DNA of 64,000 nt, from NCBI GenBank assembly GCA_019459285.1, contig JAIBEL010000007.1, positions 1-64,000 of the forward strand. Reading direction: 5' to 3'. Each line of letters begins with the position of its first letter. The stretch's first letter is position 1. This DNA comes from Rhizobium sp. (lineage in GTDB: Bacteria; Pseudomonadota; Gammaproteobacteria; Burkholderiales; Thiobacillaceae). The position numbers were made by a program, and so were the translations under genes. A model generated the notes under the pieces. The model worked only from the letters and a program-made list of their open reading frames with translations. It searched no databases and had not been told where the DNA came from. Below are positions 27,379 to 34,538 of the stretch, piece after piece.

Positions 27379-29171
27379 GTCGATTCTCCTAATGGCTGTA
27401 TGGTCGATGCGTCGATCTGGCCGCCAAACTGGTCGACCAGCTCACGCACGAATGGGTCTGATTCGATGGCCGCCACGGCTTCGGCCTGGCGCGCTTCCTT
27501 GATGCGCGTGCGCACCTGCTGCGGGGTCTGCTCGGCCGCTTTGCCGATTTCGAACGTCACCTGGAGCGTCGCACCATGCTTGTCGCGCAACGCGCCTACC
27601 AGCTTGTCCTGATAGGCACGATCGAGCAGATGTTTGTGCGACTCGCCCACGCGCAGCGTCACCGCATCGCCGGCCTGCGCCACCAGTTCGCAGTGATCGG
27701 CCAGCATCTTGGCCATGCCGCCAAGGCGTAGTTCGGCCACCACGGCGAGCCAGTCCCAGGCTCCGCTCGGCCCGGGCTCGCGGGCTGTCAATACGGGTGC
27801 GGATGGCGTGCCCGCTTCAACCGGCGCAATGACTGAGGTGGTTTCATTCGACACGGGATCGCTCGGTGCGGCTTCGGCAACCCGCTCAACTGTCGGTGCG
27901 GGCGATGGAGGTGCGCCGGGCTCGGCTTCGCGGCTGGCGGCACGCATCGGCGGTTCGGCCCGCGTCACAGACTCGGCACGTGCGGCGGGCGCGACGCGCT
28001 CCGCTGCGGACGTTCTGACGGGCGTCGATCCACTACGCACATCAGCACGTACGGAATCGCGTGAACCCGGGGCAAAGGCCAGCATGCGCAGCAATGTCAT
28101 GCAGAACCCGGAAAACTCGTCCGGCGCATACGGCAGATCGCGGCGACCGTTCAACGCGATCTGGTAATACAGCTGCACGGTTTCGGCGTCCAGCTGCGCG
28201 GCACACGCCTGCATGCGCTCGGCATCCAGACTGCTTTCCACCACGCCCGGCGCGTGCAGCAACAGCGCCAGCTGGGTCAGCAGGTTGCCGAGGTCCTGCA
28301 AGGTGGCGTCGAAGGCGATGCCGCGCTCGGCCAGTTGCCGCGCCTGGTCCAGTAGCGCATCGCCGTTGCGTGCCGCCAGAGCGTCGAGCAGGTCGAACAG
28401 ATAATCGCGCCGCACCGTACCGAGCATGGCTTCGACCGCGGCCGCCTCGACCTTGCCGCCGCCGTAGGCAATCGCCTGGTCGGTGAGCGACAGCGCATCG
28501 CGCATGCTGCCGGCCGCCGCGCGCGCCAGCAGGTTCAGCGCGGCCGGTTCGCAGGCGACTTGTTCCTGCTCCAGCACCTCGCCCAGATGCTGCGCCACCA
28601 GCGCGGGGGGCATCGGCTTGAGGTTGAACTGCAGGCAGCGGGAGAGCACCGTCACCGGAATCTTCTGTGGGTCGGTGGTGGCGAGGATGAACTTCACGTG
28701 CGCCGGCGGCTCTTCCAGCGTCTTCAGCATGGAGTTGAATGCCGGCTTCGACAGCATGTGCACTTCGTCGATGATGTAGACCTTGTAGCGGCCCACCGTC
28801 GGCGCGTACTGCGCGTTGTCGAGCACCTCGCGCATGTTGTCGACGCCGGTGTTCGACGCCGCGTCGAGCTCCAGCAGGTCGACGAAGCGGCCGGCGTCGA
28901 TCTGCGTACAGGCCGAGCACACGCCGCACGGCGTGGCCGTGACGCCGGTTTCGCAGTTGAGACATTTGGCGAGAATACGTGCCAGCGTGGTCTTGCCGAC
29001 GCCGCGCGTGCCCGTCAGCAGGTAGGCATGATGTAGCCGGCCTTGCGTCAGCGCATTCGACAAGGCCTGCACGACGTGTTCCTGGCCCTTGAGGTCGACA
29101 AACACGCGCGGCCGCCATTTGCGCGCCAGCGCAAGTGCGGGGGATGCAGAGTCGCCGAAAAGATCAGTCAT
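27375..29171 (-). CDS. dnaX: DNA polymerase III tau/gamma subunit
   Basis: A 598-residue clamp-loader subunit. AAA+ domain: Walker [15 protein letters not shown] (about 45-58), zinc-binding cysteines in CLNCETG..CGVCSAC, Walker [11 protein letters not shown] and the SRC motif LSRCLQFNL. The Ala/Pro/Glu-rich linker at about 365-470 separates the domains, and the C-terminal tau domain spans about 475-598. No obvious A-rich slippery heptamer was seen, so a separate gamma form may not be made by frameshift here. Confidence 0.95.
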
Positions 29172-29178
29172 ATGCTTA

Positions 29179-29275
29179 GGGGGCTAGCATCTAGGGACCA
29201 GGAATTAGGTGAATGCGACGCCAGCATCCGCGGATCAGCCCCCGCACAGACACTCGCCCCTAGTTCCTAGCCCCC
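29179..29275. repeat. Inverted repeat in the dnaX leader
   Basis: GGGGGCTAGCATCTAGGGA (29179-29197) and the reverse complement of 29257-29275 match at 15 or 16 of 19 positions. Both contain CTAG motifs. The arms enclose about 60 bases between the SRP RNA gene and the dnaX start, so the dnaX leader RNA could form a long stem. No dnaX ribosome site is obvious outside it. Confidence 0.5.
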
Positions 29276-29288
29276 AAGGAATATAAGT

Positions 29289-29383
29289 GGCGAGCCAGAG
29301 CCCCGGCACTGGCATCGGTCGCTGTGGCTGCTTCCTTCCGGACCTGACCCGATTCACAACTTAGCCATGCGGGGAGGCCCGCC
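29289..29383 (-). ncRNA. ffs: Signal recognition particle RNA (4.5S, small bacterial type)
   Basis: On the minus strand the invariant apical loop GGTCAGGTCCGGAAGGAAGC is present, and the 5' end GGCGGGCC pairs with the 3' end GGCTCGCC to close the long helix, giving about 95 nt. It binds Ffh to target membrane proteins. It lies immediately upstream of dnaX on the same strand, a location I recall for other betaproteobacteria. Exact ends are estimated from the terminal helix. Confidence 0.95.
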
Positions 29384-29409: not shown

Positions 29410-30486
29410 CTATTCCTCATCCGCCGGCACGGTCAGCCGGCGTTTTTTCACCGCATCGGCCAGCAGCCGCAGCAGCGGAACGGTGTCGTCCCAGCCGATG
29501 CAGGCGTCGGTGATCGACTTGGCGTATTCCAGCGACTGGCCGGCGACCAGATCCTGGCGCCCCGCGTTCAGGTGGCTTTCGATCATCGCGCCGATGATGC
29601 GGTTGTCGCCGCCGGCCACCTGGGCCGCCACGTCGGCCCCCACGTCCATCTGGCGCTGGAACTGCTTGCTCGAATTGGCGTGCGAGAAATCGATCATCAA
29701 CTGCTGGCGCAAGCCAGCCGACGCCAGTTCGCCGCACGCCAGATGGACGCTGGCCGCATCGTAATTGGGTGTCTTGCCGCCGCGCAGGATCACGTGCGTA
29801 TCCTCGTTGCCGGAGGTGCTGAACACGCCGACATGACCCGACTTGGTGATGGAAATGAAATGGTGGCGCGCCGCCGCTGCCTTGATCGCATCGACCGCGA
29901 TGCGCAAGCTGCCGTCGGTGCCGTTCTTGAAGCCGACCGGGCACGACAGCCCGGACGCCAGCTGGCGGTGAGACTGCGATTCGGTGGTGCGTGCGCCGAT
30001 GGCCCCCCAGCTCACCAGATCGGCGATGTATTGCGGCGAAATCAGGTCGAGGAACTCGGTCGCGCACGGCAGGCCGATCTCGTTGACTTCCAGCAACAGC
30101 TTGCGCGCCAGCCGCAGGCCCTCGTTGATGTCGAAGCTCTCGTCCAGGTGCGGATCGTTGATCAGCCCCTTCCAGCCCACGGTAGTGCGCGGTTTCTCGA
30201 AATACACGCGCATCACGATGATGAGCTCGTGCGCCAGCTCGTCGGCCAGCGGCTTCAGCTTGCGAGCATAATCGAGCGCCGCGGCCGGATCGTGGATGGA
30301 ACAAGGGCCGACGACGATGAACATGCGGTCGTCCGCCCCCCGCAGCACGTCGTGGATGGCACTGCGCGCATGGGCCACGTGGGCCAGAACGGTTTCGTTG
30401 GCGCGCAGTTCGCGCATGACCTGCATCGGGGCGAGCAGTTCGCCGCTTTGCTCGATGCGGGTGTCGTCGGTTCGGGTGGCAGACAT
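29410..30486 (-). CDS. aroG: 3-deoxy-7-phosphoheptulonate (DAHP) synthase, class I
   Basis: A 358-residue enzyme joining phosphoenolpyruvate and erythrose 4-phosphate, the entry to aromatic amino-acid synthesis. Class I motifs are intact: VVGPCSIHDPAAAL, RVYFEKPRTTVGWKGLINDPHLD, GARTTESQSHRQLASGLSCPVGFKNGTDG and the metal-binding end VAGGDNRIIGAMIES. ATG at 30486 gives the usual N-terminus. A Phe/Tyr leader peptide and an intrinsic terminator lie upstream (30529-30648), implying attenuation. Whether the enzyme itself is Phe- or Tyr-inhibited cannot be read with confidence; the symbol aroG is used for the family. Confidence 0.95.
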   Translation of the reverse strand: MSATRTDDTRIEQSGELLAPMQVMRELRANETVLAHVAHARSAIHDVLRGADDRMFIVVGPCSIHDPAAALDYARKLKPLADELAHELIIVMRVYFEKPRTTVGWKGLINDPHLDESFDINEGLRLARKLLLEVNEIGLPCATEFLDLISPQYIADLVSWGAIGARTTESQSHRQLASGLSCPVGFKNGTDGSLRIAVDAIKAAAARHHFISITKSGHVGVFSTSGNEDTHVILRGGKTPNYDAASVHLACGELASAGLRQQLMIDFSHANSSKQFQRQMDVGADVAAQVAGGDNRIIGAMIESHLNAGRQDLVAGQSLEYAKSITDACIGWDDTVPLLRLLADAVKKRRLTVPADEE

Positions 30487-30528
30487 GTTCAGGCTCCGGT
30501 TGGTGTGCTTCGATCGCGGCGGCTTAAA

Positions 30529-30557
30529 CAAAAAAACCGCCAGCGGGCTGGCGGTTT
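30529..30557 (-). terminator. Intrinsic terminator/attenuator ahead of aroG
   Basis: On the minus strand AACCGCCAG-CCCG-CTGGCGGTT is followed by an uninterrupted run of seven T. It lies between the leader peptide stop (30580) and the aroG ATG (30486). A GGCGGT at 30593-30598, inside the leader-peptide coding sequence, duplicates the 3' arm and can pair with ACCGCC of the 5' arm, giving an alternative antiterminator. Confidence 0.85.
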
Positions 30558-30579
30558 CGTCAAGGCGTTGCTGCTCGTC

Positions 30580-30648
30580 TCAGCGCCTCCCGACCGCCTG
30601 CGGCGTGGGATAAAAGCGGCTAAAAAAGAACTTTGCGGCACAATTCAT
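30580..30648 (-). CDS. Phe/Tyr-rich leader peptide of the aroG attenuator
   Basis: A 22-residue open frame containing KFFFSRFYPTP: four Phe and one Tyr codon within eight residues. It ends about 23 bases before the terminator hairpin, and its last codons include the GGCGGT antiterminator arm. A small CGCC-GCA-GGCG hairpin (30595-30605) could act as the protector. A ribosome stalled on the Phe/Tyr codons would cover the CGCC arm, freeing GGCGGT to pair with the terminator. The ribosome-binding site is weak, and translation is inferred. Confidence 0.6.
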   Translation of the reverse strand: MNCAAKFFFSRFYPTPQAVGRR

Positions 30649-30779
30649 GCATGGGAGTCTACCAAAATCAGGCGGAGTCCGCCAAGTGCCTTCCAGCCCG
30701 GCGGGTTCGCCCTGAACTGGACAGCACGACCGGGCCGTTGTATTGAGCAGGTGGGGAAAAATCAAGGGAAAGTGTGGAA

Positions 30780-33700
30780 ATGATGGCTAACGCGACAGAC
30801 AACCAACATACCGGCCAGGAATTGCGGCGCGACCGACGCTTCCAGGTTTCACAGGCCGCCATTATCACGCAACCGGGATACACGGAAATCGCCTGCGAGA
30901 TTCGCGATTTCTGCCAGGGCGGCCTGTTTCTCAAGTTCACCAACCCCGAAGCGGCGATCACCGCGCTGGCCAAGCGCGCCGATGCTGCGGTGGAAATCGT
31001 CTTCACCCCGGTGTCGATCAGTACGTCCCAGACCTTCCGGGTGCCTGCGCAGCTCAAGCGCCTGAGCCCACTCGGGGTCGGAGTTGCGTTTGCCCGCCAG
31101 CCGGTCGACGCGCTGCGTGCACTGCAAAGGCTGCGTATGGCGGGACACCGGCAAAAACTGGCTGCCCTGCCGACCTCCGCTGCACACCCCCATCTGCGCG
31201 AAGCCAGTACCACCCTGCTGAGCGAGACCCTGTTCCAGGTGCACGACCAGATCATGCGTGTACTGGGCGACAAACTGAGCGCCGCAGCCGTGCAGGCATC
31301 CGGCATTGCCGAACACAGCGGCCTGCTGAGCGCCGTGCATGAATTCGCCAATCACGGCCCGGCCGTGCAGACCCGCTTTGTGCAAGGCGTGCTCGATGCA
31401 CTGAAACAGGCACGGCCGGTCCAGACCCAGGCCACCCGCGACACCATGGACGGTGGATTGGCACTGGTCGACGAACTGGATTTCGAAGACTGGCTTGCCA
31501 CTTCGAGCGAGGCCAACAAGCTGGAAGAGCAGTTTCGCGAACAGCTTTCGGACATCGAGCCCCGCATCGGCCAGCTGTTCGGTTTCGCCTGCGATCACAA
31601 CAACAACCCCTTCGGTCCGGCGGTGATCGGTCATGCCTATCGGGGTGCATTGCAGGACGTGTCGGTGCTGGCCAAGGCGCGCCAAGTCGCCTACGTCACA
31701 CTGCGCGATGTGTTGACCGAGTTGCTGGCGCCGTTGTATGCCGAACTGCTGGCCCTGTTGCCCGTTTCGCAGGCCGAGGTCGAGCGCCATAAACCTGCCG
31801 CCGTGTCGCCACAGCATGCCGCCACCCCGGCCAGCGATGAGGCGTCGTCCCCGGCGCAGCCTGAGGGCCTGGCATCGTCGCCTTCCACCCAGCCGCGCGG
31901 CACGCTCAACCGCCTGGCCGGCTCGCTGCTGGACTTTTTCCGCGGCCAGCCGCCTGCGCCTGGTGCCGCACCCCCTACGGACGTAACGGGCACCCCCGCC
32001 GCAGGCGGCGCCATGCCAGGTTATGCCCCGCAATCCCAAGGGATGCCGGCTGCTGCGGGCGCTGGCGGCGGCGCGGCTGGCCAGGCCATGATGCCCGGCG
32101 CACCCGGCATCGCCCACTCACCGGTGCTGCAGCGTCTGGCTGCCGCCGGTGCCCTGCCCCCGGCCGTTACCCATGAAATGCAGCGTTCGGTCGACATGTT
32201 CGGCGCGCTGTTCGACACCATGCATGCCGAGAAATCGGTCAGCGAAGGCATGCGGCCGTTTTTCCAGCAGCTGGAAACCAGCCTCATCAAGCTGGCGATG
32301 GCCGATCCGGAATTCCTCGCCTCGCCTGCCCACCCCGCACACAAGGTACTGAACACCCTCGACCGCATCAGCATGGTGGCCGGCGACGACGGCAAGATCA
32401 CGGATGCACGTCTGCTGCGGCTGATGAGCCGTTGGACCGATCGCATCAACGCCGAGGCCGACAAGAATCCGGGGGTGTTCGAGGAAGCGCGCACCCAGCT
32501 GGAGCGCGTGGTCAAGCCGCTGCTGCATGAGCGTGCCGCGCGCGTGTTCCGCCTGCAGGAAATGTGCGAAGGCCGCCAGCGCGCCGAGGTCGTCAAGCAG
32601 CGCATCCTGCGCGATCTGCTGAAGCGGCTGGAGAACGAGCGGGCGGTGCCGAATGCCGTCATCGAACTGCTGAACGGCGGCTGGCGCAATGTGCTGCTGA
32701 TCGCCGAGATGCGCCACGGCGTCGACAGCGACGAAGCACGCGAGGCCTGGCAGGTGTTGCAGCAGCTGTGTACCTGGCTGGATGCGGACCCGACCGAGCC
32801 GCCCACGACCACCCAGATCCAGGCCCTGCTGCAGCAGATCGACCAGGCCCTGACCCACGTCTGCGCCGACAAATTCGCCCAGGACCGCATCGTCGATCAA
32901 CTTGCCGCCGCCCTGCTCGACGAAGGCAAATCGCAACATCAGCGCACCTCCGTCGCCGCCCGCCTTGACGATGCGGCCAGCGAACCCCTCTCCGAGGCGC
33001 AGGACAACCTGGCCGAACGCCTGCGCGTCGGCGACTGGCTGCAGTTCAAGTCGCTCGAAGCCCCGCTCAACCTGATCTGGATCGGCGACCAGCCGCCGGT
33101 GTATGTCTTCGCCAATTACCGCGGCATCAAGAAGCTCGACCTCAAGCGCCAGGACCTGCTGCAGTCCCTGGAAGGCGGCGAAGCGCAATGGACCGAGGAT
33201 CTGGAACTGCCGCTGATGGATCGTTCCTACAGCGCGATGATCCAGAAAATGCAGCGCGACCTGCTGTGGCAGGCGTCCCACGACCCCGCCACCGGCCTCG
33301 CCAATCGCAAGAGCTTCTTCCGCGCCATCCGCCGCAACTGGCTGCGCAGCCAGGCGGCCGACAGCGGCTACGCCATCGGCGTGATCCAGTTCGACATCAG
33401 CAAGCCCACGGGCGAAACCGCGGGCGTCGAGATCCGCACGCCCATCCTGCGCGATTACGCCCAGATCATGCCCACGCTGTTGCCGCCCAATGCACTGCTT
33501 GCACGCTCCGGCGAATCCGGCATCGCATTCTGGATCGAGGCGGCCGGCCAGGCCTCGGCCCAGGCGCAGACCGAAGCCCTGCTGCACGCTCTGACCGCTC
33601 ACCCCCAGGAAATCAGCGGCACCCGCTACCGCGTGCAGCCTGCGGCCGGCCTGGCCTGGGCGCGCGACTGCATCACTCCCGAGATCTACTACGACAACGC

Positions 33701-34538
33701 CAACGCCGCCTGCGCGCGCGCGCGCGAGTCGGACATGTCCGTCGTCCAGTACGACAGCGAAGCCGACGAGAGCGGCGTGCTGGCGCTGGCCGAATGGGCG
33801 CATGAGCTGACCGCCATCCTCGCCAGCAACCAGCTCAGCCTCAACTGCCAGCCGGTGGCCGCCGCGGCCGATGCCGCACGGACCCCGCTGTATTACGAAG
33901 TCCTGTTGCATCCCACCGCGGAAGGCGAACGCAGCATCGCCACGCGCGACCTGATTGCCGTGGCCGAACGCCTGCAGCGCATCACCGAGATCGACCGCTG
34001 GGTGGTGCGTCATGTCCTGCAGTGGATGCGTGCGCACAGCGACACGCTCGCCCGGATCGGCGGCCTGTCGATCAACCTGTCCGGACAATCGGTCACCAAT
34101 CCGCTGTTCCTGAAATACCTGCAGGCCGAACTGGCGCGCGGCGACCTCCCCGGCAACAAGCTCATCTTCGAGATCAGCGAAGCCGACGCCGTCGAAGGCC
34201 ACGCGCAGACCCAGCTGTTCATGCGCCAGCTGCAACGCCACGGTTGCCGCTTCACGCTGGACGAGTTTGGCGCCGGCAACAGCTCCTACACCAGCCTAAA
34301 GAGCATGAAGCTGGATTACCTGAAGATCGATCGCGCGCTGGTGCGCGAAATCGGCACCAGCATGATCGACGAGGCACTGGTGCGCTCCATCCTGGAAACC
34401 GGGAGTTTCCTTGAGATCAAGACGGTGGCGGGATTTGTCGAGAACGAAGAGGCGTTGGCCAAGCTGGCGGAGATGGGGGTGGATTGTGTGCAGGGGTATT
34501 TGATTGGGGAGCCGAGGGCGCTGGAGAGTTTGGGCTGA
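30780..34538 (+). CDS. Large PilZ-DUF1631-GGDEF-EAL protein with degenerate catalytic motifs
   Basis: About 1250 residues. The N-terminus carries a PilZ-like c-di-GMP motif (LRRDRRFQVSQ, then CEIRDFCQGGLFLKF). The DUF1631 region spans about 130-800 and includes a Pro/Ala/Gly-rich linker near 345-450. A GGDEF-like domain (about 835-1000) has DPATGLANRKSFF but GESGI in place of GGDEF. An EAL-like domain (about 1015-1254) has EVLL instead of EALL and DEFGAG instead of DDFGTG. The protein therefore probably senses c-di-GMP without making or degrading it, perhaps linking it to pili. That is inference from motifs. Starts at GTG 30774 and ATG 30780 or 30783 are all possible. Confidence 0.8.
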   Translation: MMANATDNQHTGQELRRDRRFQVSQAAIITQPGYTEIACEIRDFCQGGLFLKFTNPEAAITALAKRADAAVEIVFTPVSISTSQTFRVPAQLKRLSPLGVGVAFARQPVDALRALQRLRMAGHRQKLAALPTSAAHPHLREASTTLLSETLFQVHDQIMRVLGDKLSAAAVQASGIAEHSGLLSAVHEFANHGPAVQTRFVQGVLDALKQARPVQTQATRDTMDGGLALVDELDFEDWLATSSEANKLEEQFREQLSDIEPRIGQLFGFACDHNNNPFGPAVIGHAYRGALQDVSVLAKARQVAYVTLRDVLTELLAPLYAELLALLPVSQAEVERHKPAAVSPQHAATPASDEASSPAQPEGLASSPSTQPRGTLNRLAGSLLDFFRGQPPAPGAAPPTDVTGTPAAGGAMPGYAPQSQGMPAAAGAGGGAAGQAMMPGAPGIAHSPVLQRLAAAGALPPAVTHEMQRSVDMFGALFDTMHAEKSVSEGMRPFFQQLETSLIKLAMADPEFLASPAHPAHKVLNTLDRISMVAGDDGKITDARLLRLMSRWTDRINAEADKNPGVFEEARTQLERVVKPLLHERAARVFRLQEMCEGRQRAEVVKQRILRDLLKRLENERAVPNAVIELLNGGWRNVLLIAEMRHGVDSDEAREAWQVLQQLCTWLDADPTEPPTTTQIQALLQQIDQALTHVCADKFAQDRIVDQLAAALLDEGKSQHQRTSVAARLDDAASEPLSEAQDNLAERLRVGDWLQFKSLEAPLNLIWIGDQPPVYVFANYRGIKKLDLKRQDLLQSLEGGEAQWTEDLELPLMDRSYSAMIQKMQRDLLWQASHDPATGLANRKSFFRAIRRNWLRSQAADSGYAIGVIQFDISKPTGETAGVEIRTPILRDYAQIMPTLLPPNALLARSGESGIAFWIEAAGQASAQAQTEALLHALTAHPQEISGTRYRVQPAAGLAWARDCITPEIYYDNANAACARARESDMSVVQYDSEADESGVLALAEWAHELTAILASNQLSLNCQPVAAAADAARTPLYYEVLLHPTAEGERSIATRDLIAVAERLQRITEIDRWVVRHVLQWMRAHSDTLARIGGLSINLSGQSVTNPLFLKYLQAELARGDLPGNKLIFEISEADAVEGHAQTQLFMRQLQRHGCRFTLDEFGAGNSSYTSLKSMKLDYLKIDRALVREIGTSMIDEALVRSILETGSFLEIKTVAGFVENEEALAKLAEMGVDCVQGYLIGEPRALESLG

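Follow-up and report, generated by a model that had tools for sequence, protein, structure and literature searches.

On the minus strand of the window (the whole stretch of 64,000 nucleotides analyzed here), aroG is preceded by a short leader frame rich in aromatic codons and by an intrinsic terminator, which together very likely constitute a ribosome-mediated transcription attenuator of this gene. Very probably, the leader monitors the aromatic amino acids specified by its codons and has transcription terminated when they are abundant. The proposal is built on features established here by sequence comparison: the leader frame, the terminator, an invariant complementarity between both, the spacing of the codons, the link to aroG and a wide conservation. 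What appears to be the same switch recurs before aroG in many proteobacteria.

The leader locus and the aroG gene

Upon re-reading the sequence, the 22-codon Phe/Tyr frame, the perfect terminator with its seven T and the aroG gene downstream were each found where the first-pass annotation had placed them (Table 1). Four bases ahead of the leader ATG lies a second one (30652), with which an overlapping frame of 10 codons begins, read by eye as MHELCRKVLF (30652-30620, minus strand). The conserved aromatic frame is that starting at 30648 only, and not the overlapping one.

Table 1. Elements of the leader-aroG locus, in window coordinates.
Feature	Position	Strand	Evidence and remarks
-35-like box TTGGCG	30680..30685	-	sequence; a TTG is similarly placed in many relatives, by eye
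-10-like box TAGACT	30656..30661	-	ends 7 nt before the leader ATG; position statistics of TAnnnT
Leader ORF MNCAAKFFFSRFYPTPQAVGRR	30580..30648	-	22 codons plus TGA (30582-30580), ATG at 30648; without Shine-Dalgarno
Control codons FFFSRFY	30610..30630	-	F30630, F30627, F30624, F30615, Y30612
Region 1 CCCACGCC	30602..30609	-	pairing partner of region 2 (protector) in the window's MFE fold; includes CGCC 30605-30602
Region 2 GGCGGTCGGG	30589..30598	-	antiterminator 5′ arm, within the leader ORF; GGCGG 30598-30594, GGCGGT 30598-30593
Intrinsic terminator GAAACCGCCAG-CCCG-CTGGCGGTTTT (regions 3 and 4)	30533..30558	-	scan; 11 pairs, 4-nt loop; covariation
Seven-T run	30530..30536	-	sequence
aroG Shine-Dalgarno GGAG	30494..30497	-	sequence
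aroG, 3-deoxy-7-phosphoheptulonate (DAHP) synthase, type I	29410..30486	-	ATG at 30486; TIGR00034; PDB matches

The AroG product scores 532.7 bits against TIGR00034 (cut-off 173.2), and its best PDB matches are DAHP synthases, the top three being E. coli-type Phe-regulated entries. No type II DAHP synthase was found in the genome. One further PF00793 match exists besides AroG; it is flanked by ORFs that, on inspection, resemble CTP synthase and enolase. It was read as KdsA, and a second DAHP synthase in the genome was rejected.

The upstream neighbor of the leader (ORF 30774-34538, plus strand) runs divergently. As a consequence of this orientation, the terminator ends no upstream message, and its assignment to a neighboring gene was ruled out. 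Immediately 3′ of aroG, and before dnaX-type and ybaB-type genes, lies a bacterial small SRP RNA (RF00169, 70 bits; 29286-29383, minus strand). The stretch between the SRP RNA and dnaX (29165-29285, minus strand) contains an imperfect inverted repeat seen by eye, GGGGGCTAGGAACTAGGG ... CCTAGATGCTAGCCCCC, and has no second genomic copy at E <= 0.001.

Comparison with control terminators

The strict test for an attenuator demanded that the reverse complement of the terminator left arm lie within a short ORF that has four or more F/Y/W codons and a stop ahead of the terminator. With criteria fixed after some of the same sequences had been viewed, 30 of the 40 terminators found upstream of aroG in 80 named relatives passed, against none of 168 control terminators taken from the rest of the same loci and from the window (986,792 bases over both strands). 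When all upstream regions were considered, 111 of 187 passed with at least four F/Y/W codons, distributed as 30/80 named loci, 47/48 loci of the genus, 34/55 loci of other genera of the family and 0/4 paralogue loci. Folding of the 146-nt sequence by itself gave an ordinary energy (z -0.45; 69 of 200 shuffles at least as good). As the single-sequence fold is not unusually stable, the case for the attenuator is comparative and not thermodynamic.

Distribution of the element

A covariance model (R1) was built from an alignment of 52 leaders (A1); the leaders used for the build, which account for 24 of the 80 named loci and 28 of the 103 family loci, match it by construction. When searched against the window's own genome, R1 gave one match of 108 bits, the other eight being of 24.4 bits or less and two of these nominally full-length at 15 bits or less. 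R1 matched 100 of the 103 orthologue loci read from the Thiobacillaceae family, or 72 of 75 when those of the build are left aside: all 48 loci of the genus and 52 of the 55 from other genera of the family, one of the latter matches being cut by a contig end. Four loci encoding a second DAHP synthase, which shares 61-63% identity with that of the window, gave no R1 match. The comparison of orthologues that the first-pass annotation had suggested hence finds the leader frame and its aromatic codons kept together with the terminator, in other families as well as in this one. The opposite outcome it had envisaged, a terminator retained without the leader, is not the pattern of the set overall and occurs at one locus, L156.

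The three family loci outside the full matches are L172 and L181, with no R1 match, and L156, which retains the 3′ part only. Loci lacking the element are L172, the similar sequence L006 and L181, to which L156 adds a terminator without aromatic leader; all of them should be useful for comparing control of aroG with and without the element. At L085 the usual leader frame stops after FFF and the remainder lies in another frame; this may be genuine or a misassembly within the T run.

Among the named loci, 34 of 80 have a full-length R1 match of at least 42 bits (24 used in the build and 10 not), in records that include Burkholderia, Caballeronia, Paraburkholderia, Cupriavidus, Bordetella, Janthinobacterium, Massilia and Bradyrhizobium. 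A strong R1 match is absent at 46 of the 80, including Thauera, Azoarcus, Chromobacterium, Methylotenera, enterobacterial and Vibrio records. A survey of 300 genomes of the order, which may include species close to the leaders of the build, gave some R1 match at E <= 0.01 in 142, many of the terminator part only, and a full-length match at E <= 3.1e-6 in 73, with no genome matched twice. All of these 73 strong matches except that of G086 were fetched (30 as loci and 42 by region), and 72 of 72 have AroG in the stretch; of 11 weaker matches fetched, four have AroG and seven have none.

At the level of the phylum, 47 of 398 genomes gave an R1 match at E <= 1e-5: 22 belong to the same order, 6 to another order of the class and 19 lie elsewhere. 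One of the 22 same-order matches, G159, shows no AroG in the 1.4 kb read, and the 11 newly fetched phylum loci (10 of them among the 25 outside the order) all combine an AroG, 62-64% identical, with an aromatic leader. The leader MNAAPTSFYWYYFPKPLAEEGLRSP and similar ones come from the other order of the class, MITVATSYFWYFSYDSSLAAGGSRSI and similar ones from a group with a leader matching the one at the named Bradyrhizobium locus L082, and MIHLTASFWYFYSSSLAAGGLRSI from a further group. Outside the window's family, 58 of 69 loci pass a test for leader, GGCGG and terminator, and 11 fail. In L082 and L278-L283, located outside the class, the same unit of leader and aroG is found, with an AroG 63% identical to the window's, a value within the range of beta-relatives; either horizontal transfer or deep ancestry may explain this.

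These data bear on the simplest alternative, a plain constitutive terminator or transcription insulator next to which the small aromatic ORF is incidental. It would fit the strength of the intrinsic terminator, the unremarkable single-sequence fold and the relative L156. We nevertheless consider it most unlikely, since the aromatic ORF, its spacing to GGCGG and the repeated GGCGG are all kept with the terminator in many genera, and since the divergent upstream gene leaves no same-strand upstream transcript to be ended.

Alternative pairings and selection on the leader

Three mutually exclusive pairings had been proposed in the first-pass annotation, and they do not fare equally. The terminator is borne out by covariation: 97.1% of cells are paired, four pairs have changed on both sides, and no shuffle out of 500 scored as high. 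For the antiterminator core GGCGG:CCGCC, complementarity holds in 51 or 52 of the 52 aligned sequences at each of its five pairs. As this core is invariant, covariation is silent on it; the antiterminator fold over the 52 sequences is modestly better than that of shuffles (mean z -1.05, 23/52 below -1). In the window's MFE fold the protector CCC-CGCC:GGCG-GGG is good, but it is not conserved across the set: 77.1% of cells are paired, 470 of 500 shuffles being as high, and the fold gives a mean z of -0.57 with 13/52 below -1. A universal protector hairpin is thus unsupported across the 52 sequences, and a strong general fold signal, whether in the single sequence or over the set, where it is modest, is absent. 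In several lineages, inspection by eye also suggests a plausible further helix on the inner side.

In 29 distinct leaders of the genus, the four codons of region 2 are invariant. TTT and TTC interchange at codons +30 and +27 of these leaders, while +18 and +12 are fixed and +15 is nearly so. As codons +18, +15 and +12 hardly vary, even synonymously, selection at the peptide level and at the RNA level is not cleanly separable within the genus.

Spacing between the last aromatic codon and GGCGG

Each distance given here runs from the first base of the last aromatic codon to the start of GGCGG; for permutations the residues before GGCGG were shuffled. In the window, GGCGG begins at nucleotide 15 from Tyr 30612. 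Within the family (71 distinct leaders), the distance is 15 in 60 and between 11 and 18 in 69, the permutation mean for 11-18 being 15.5. Leaders from outside the family (80 distinct) have a distance of 15 in 29 cases and of 11-18 in 66 (permutation mean for 11-18, 12.4). The last aromatic codon lies less than 11 nt from GGCGG in 1/71 family leaders and 1/80 others, with permutation means of 51.8 and 65.7, respectively. In the 58 passing loci outside the family, GGCGG occurs in all three phases of the leader frame (43/10/5), and the last aromatic codon precedes it by 11-16 nt in 50 of them. Such phase shifts of GGCGG with respect to the leader frame favor translation of the leader.

A ribosome usually covers about 12-13 nt from the first base of the codon in its A site. 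With this footprint, a ribosome stalled at the last aromatic codon would cover region 1 and stop just short of GGCGG, and one held up at the early FFF would not cover region 1. The suggestion of the first-pass annotation that the Phe/Tyr codons are placed to mask the first arm can consequently be kept for the last ones (Phe 30615 and Tyr 30612), from which CCCACGCC would be covered, and has to be dropped for FFF, too far upstream by the same footprint.

As for the stop codon, GGCGG starts 21 nt or less before its end in 80/81 family leaders and in 14/28 others, and in 25/58 of the outside-family passing set. A ribosome at the stop would mask GGCGG where this start lies within about 21 nt of the stop end; outside the family it is often too far. 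In these cases, release of the ribosome, or masking of the inner helix, would have to serve.

Two other types of control have to be considered. In a metabolite-binding riboswitch, or in an attenuator controlled by a protein, translation of the ORF would be irrelevant. The invariance of region 2 at the RNA level and the fact that GGCGG/CCGCC is the most conserved part of alignment A1 are in keeping with this, yet no conserved stretch beyond terminator and GGCGG stands out in A1, and the aromatic codons persist while the phase of GGCGG changes. Furthermore, Rfam 15 gave no match at gathering score in 13 diverse relatives, and in E-value mode none over threshold in the window's leader, where one match lies far below the gathering score; the model Trp_leader (RF00513) was over its cut-off in 0 of 10 genomes. 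We therefore hold control by a metabolite or a protein to be very unlikely. For the same lack of Rfam 15 matches in the window's leader and its relatives, an Rfam-listed amino-acid leader was discarded.

In nascent-chain arrest peptides such as TnaC and SecM, a ligand arrests the ribosome at a peptide motif, for which PTPQAVG would be the candidate here. The segment following the aromatic run is in fact conserved within the genus (PTPQAVGRR), but it differs elsewhere (LRPLADREG, SNSNPKAVE, FLKPLAEEG, SSPAEER, DSSLAAGG) with a constant GGCGG. Since the residues after the aromatic codons vary while GGCGG does not, conservation is at the RNA and not at the peptide level, and there is very little to recommend an arrest peptide over attenuation by a ribosome stalled at aromatic codons.

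Start of the leader

In 29 of 51 leaders, where shuffles would give 2.9, a TAnnnT box ends 5-8 nt ahead of the start codon. The boxes are distributed as 26/30 in the family and 3/22 in the others, one of which was too short to test, and their commonest distance to the ATG is 7 (23 boxes). In the outside-family passing set, 24/58 leaders have the box, with 3.6 expected. A strict sigma-70 scan called no promoter at the window's leader, the -10-like box of which rests on these position statistics. Motifs resembling a Shine-Dalgarno sequence precede 2/52 leader starts, and 1/58 in the outside-family passing set; a Shine-Dalgarno-bearing start was found for aroG in 49/52, in a search that favored aroG by taking the best candidate. 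These observations suggest that many leaders have leaderless or nearly leaderless transcripts. In loci of the Burkholderia and Oxalobacteraceae types, a TATA-like box is seen by eye further upstream; therefore, the leaderless reading fails for them.

Proposed mechanism and amino acids probably sensed

From the sequence features described above we infer the transcription start, translation of the leader, stalling, termination and the response to amino acids as follows. RNA polymerase would start at or near the leader AUG, and a ribosome would translate the leader immediately. With an ample supply of charged tRNA-Phe and tRNA-Tyr (and, in many relatives, of tRNA-Trp), the ribosome would reach the stop codon, located in the window 16 nt past the start of GGCGG, and would mask GGCGG. 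The terminator CCGCC...GGCGG-U7 would then form and transcription would end at about 30530. With one such tRNA uncharged, the ribosome would stall on the last aromatic codons, masking region 1 and leaving GGCGG just free; free GGCGG would capture CCGCC, no terminator would form and aroG would be made.

The family leaders (71 distinct) contain codons for Phe and Tyr in 58 cases, for Phe only in 9 and for all three aromatic amino acids in 4. Among the 80 distinct leaders from outside the family, in which F, Y and W make up about 32% of the residues, codons for all three occur in 41, for Phe and Tyr in 35, for Phe alone in 3 and for Phe with Trp in 1. As Trp codons are common outside the family, the wider family looks like a sensor of aromatic amino acids and not of Phe and Tyr only. 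The signal in the window should be Phe and Tyr, and in many relatives any aromatic amino acid.

A more far-reaching proposal, which we put forward tentatively and rate at somewhat less than an even chance, is that a single RNA family, present in betaproteobacteria and parts of the alpha- and gammaproteobacteria and tied to one gene, gauges Phe, Tyr and Trp by means of often leaderless leaders. Their interleaved codons would operate as an OR gate, so that shortage of any one amino acid would release DAHP synthase, and this would replace the enteric control by TyrR/TrpR. The constant element would be an RNA ruler, from the last aromatic codon to GGCGG and mostly of 15 nt, and not the peptide.

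The shikimate pathway begins with DAHP synthase, and a widespread attenuator of aroG would explain, in a way open to experiment, how aromatic flux is matched to tRNA charging in these bacteria. The aroG leader might moreover serve as a ready-made sensor of aromatic amino acids, and the naturally occurring leaders, which differ in codon type, frame and spacing, could be used to test how the position of the ribosome picks between two RNA folds.

Comparison with known systems

The leaders of the enterobacterial ilvGMEDA and thr operons likewise combine codons for several end products of one pathway; these belong to the branched-chain and threonine pathways, whereas the aroG leaders belong to the aromatic one. 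The E. coli pheA and pheST attenuators comprise a Phe-rich leader ORF, a terminator and competing structures, and differ from the aroG leaders in their target genes. The attenuator of aroR-aroF from Corynebacterium glutamicum was reportedly first described by Neshat et al. in 2014.

In the portions of the sources consulted, aroR-aroF of C. glutamicum is an instance of ribosome-mediated attenuation of a DAHP synthase gene, with a Phe-Tyr-Phe leader that responds to Phe and not to Tyr (PMC11802643, PMC4046766). Phe counts there and Tyr does not, though codons for both are present; the presence of a codon is hence no proof of a response. The likeness to the element described here, a leader-attenuated DAHP synthase gene, is an analogy at the level of function only: that case is actinobacterial, and the proteobacterial leaders counted here have at least three or four aromatic codons, depending on the test, often with Trp. 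The same portion of PMC11802643 names the attenuators of E. coli pheA (pheL) and pheST and has aroF and aroH of E. coli controlled by TyrR/TrpR.

A predicted attenuator before a proteobacterial DAHP synthase gene is also on record: the accessible part of PMC1173090 tabulates predictions for the DAHP synthase-tyrA operons (aroA-I-alpha(Y)-tyrA) of two Vibrio species, and its table of tyrA operons also includes a Bordetella parapertussis supraoperon, without aroG in it. The Vibrio prediction comes from a database of terminator/antiterminator folds, and no leader peptide is mentioned in that part of the text (PMC1173090). The Vibrio locus among our named relatives (L079) has no R1 match; the Vibrio aroA-tyrA operons themselves did not enter the comparison. 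The novelty remark of the first-pass annotation, that such control is not known to have been described for a betaproteobacterial aroG, must accordingly be corrected: a DAHP synthase gene attenuated by Phe has been described in C. glutamicum (PMC11802643, PMC4046766), and attenuators are predicted before the Vibrio operons (PMC1173090); for the proteobacterial aroG family none was found in the literature searched.

The part of the literature that was searched yielded no description of a beta- or alphaproteobacterial aroG leader, nor of how these bacteria control aroG. A bare earlier prediction of this attenuator is possible (Vitreschak 2004; the database behind PMC1173090). The main text of PMC2965389 does not contain aroG or DAHP. 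According to the sections available, a survey of RNA motifs from 2013 includes leaders for His, Trp, Thr and Leu and states that Phe and Ile/Val attenuators were absent from Rfam (PMC3766115), and a motif list of 2010 holds a Leu/phe leader from Lactococcus as well as a pheA motif of actinobacteria (PMC2864571).

The leaderless start proposed for many aroG leaders has a counterpart in the Sinorhizobium meliloti trpL leader (rnTrpL), which, in the parts of the reports consulted, is a leaderless ORF whose attenuator transcript starts at the leader AUG (PMC7298713, PMC10117765). It differs in being Trp-specific and in preceding trpE(G). The often leaderless starts and the three-way aromatic codon content are features of the aroG leaders worth testing. 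The predicted mechanism itself is classical, as in pheA and in aroR-aroF of C. glutamicum, and what appears to be new is a widespread proteobacterial family of such leaders in front of aroG.
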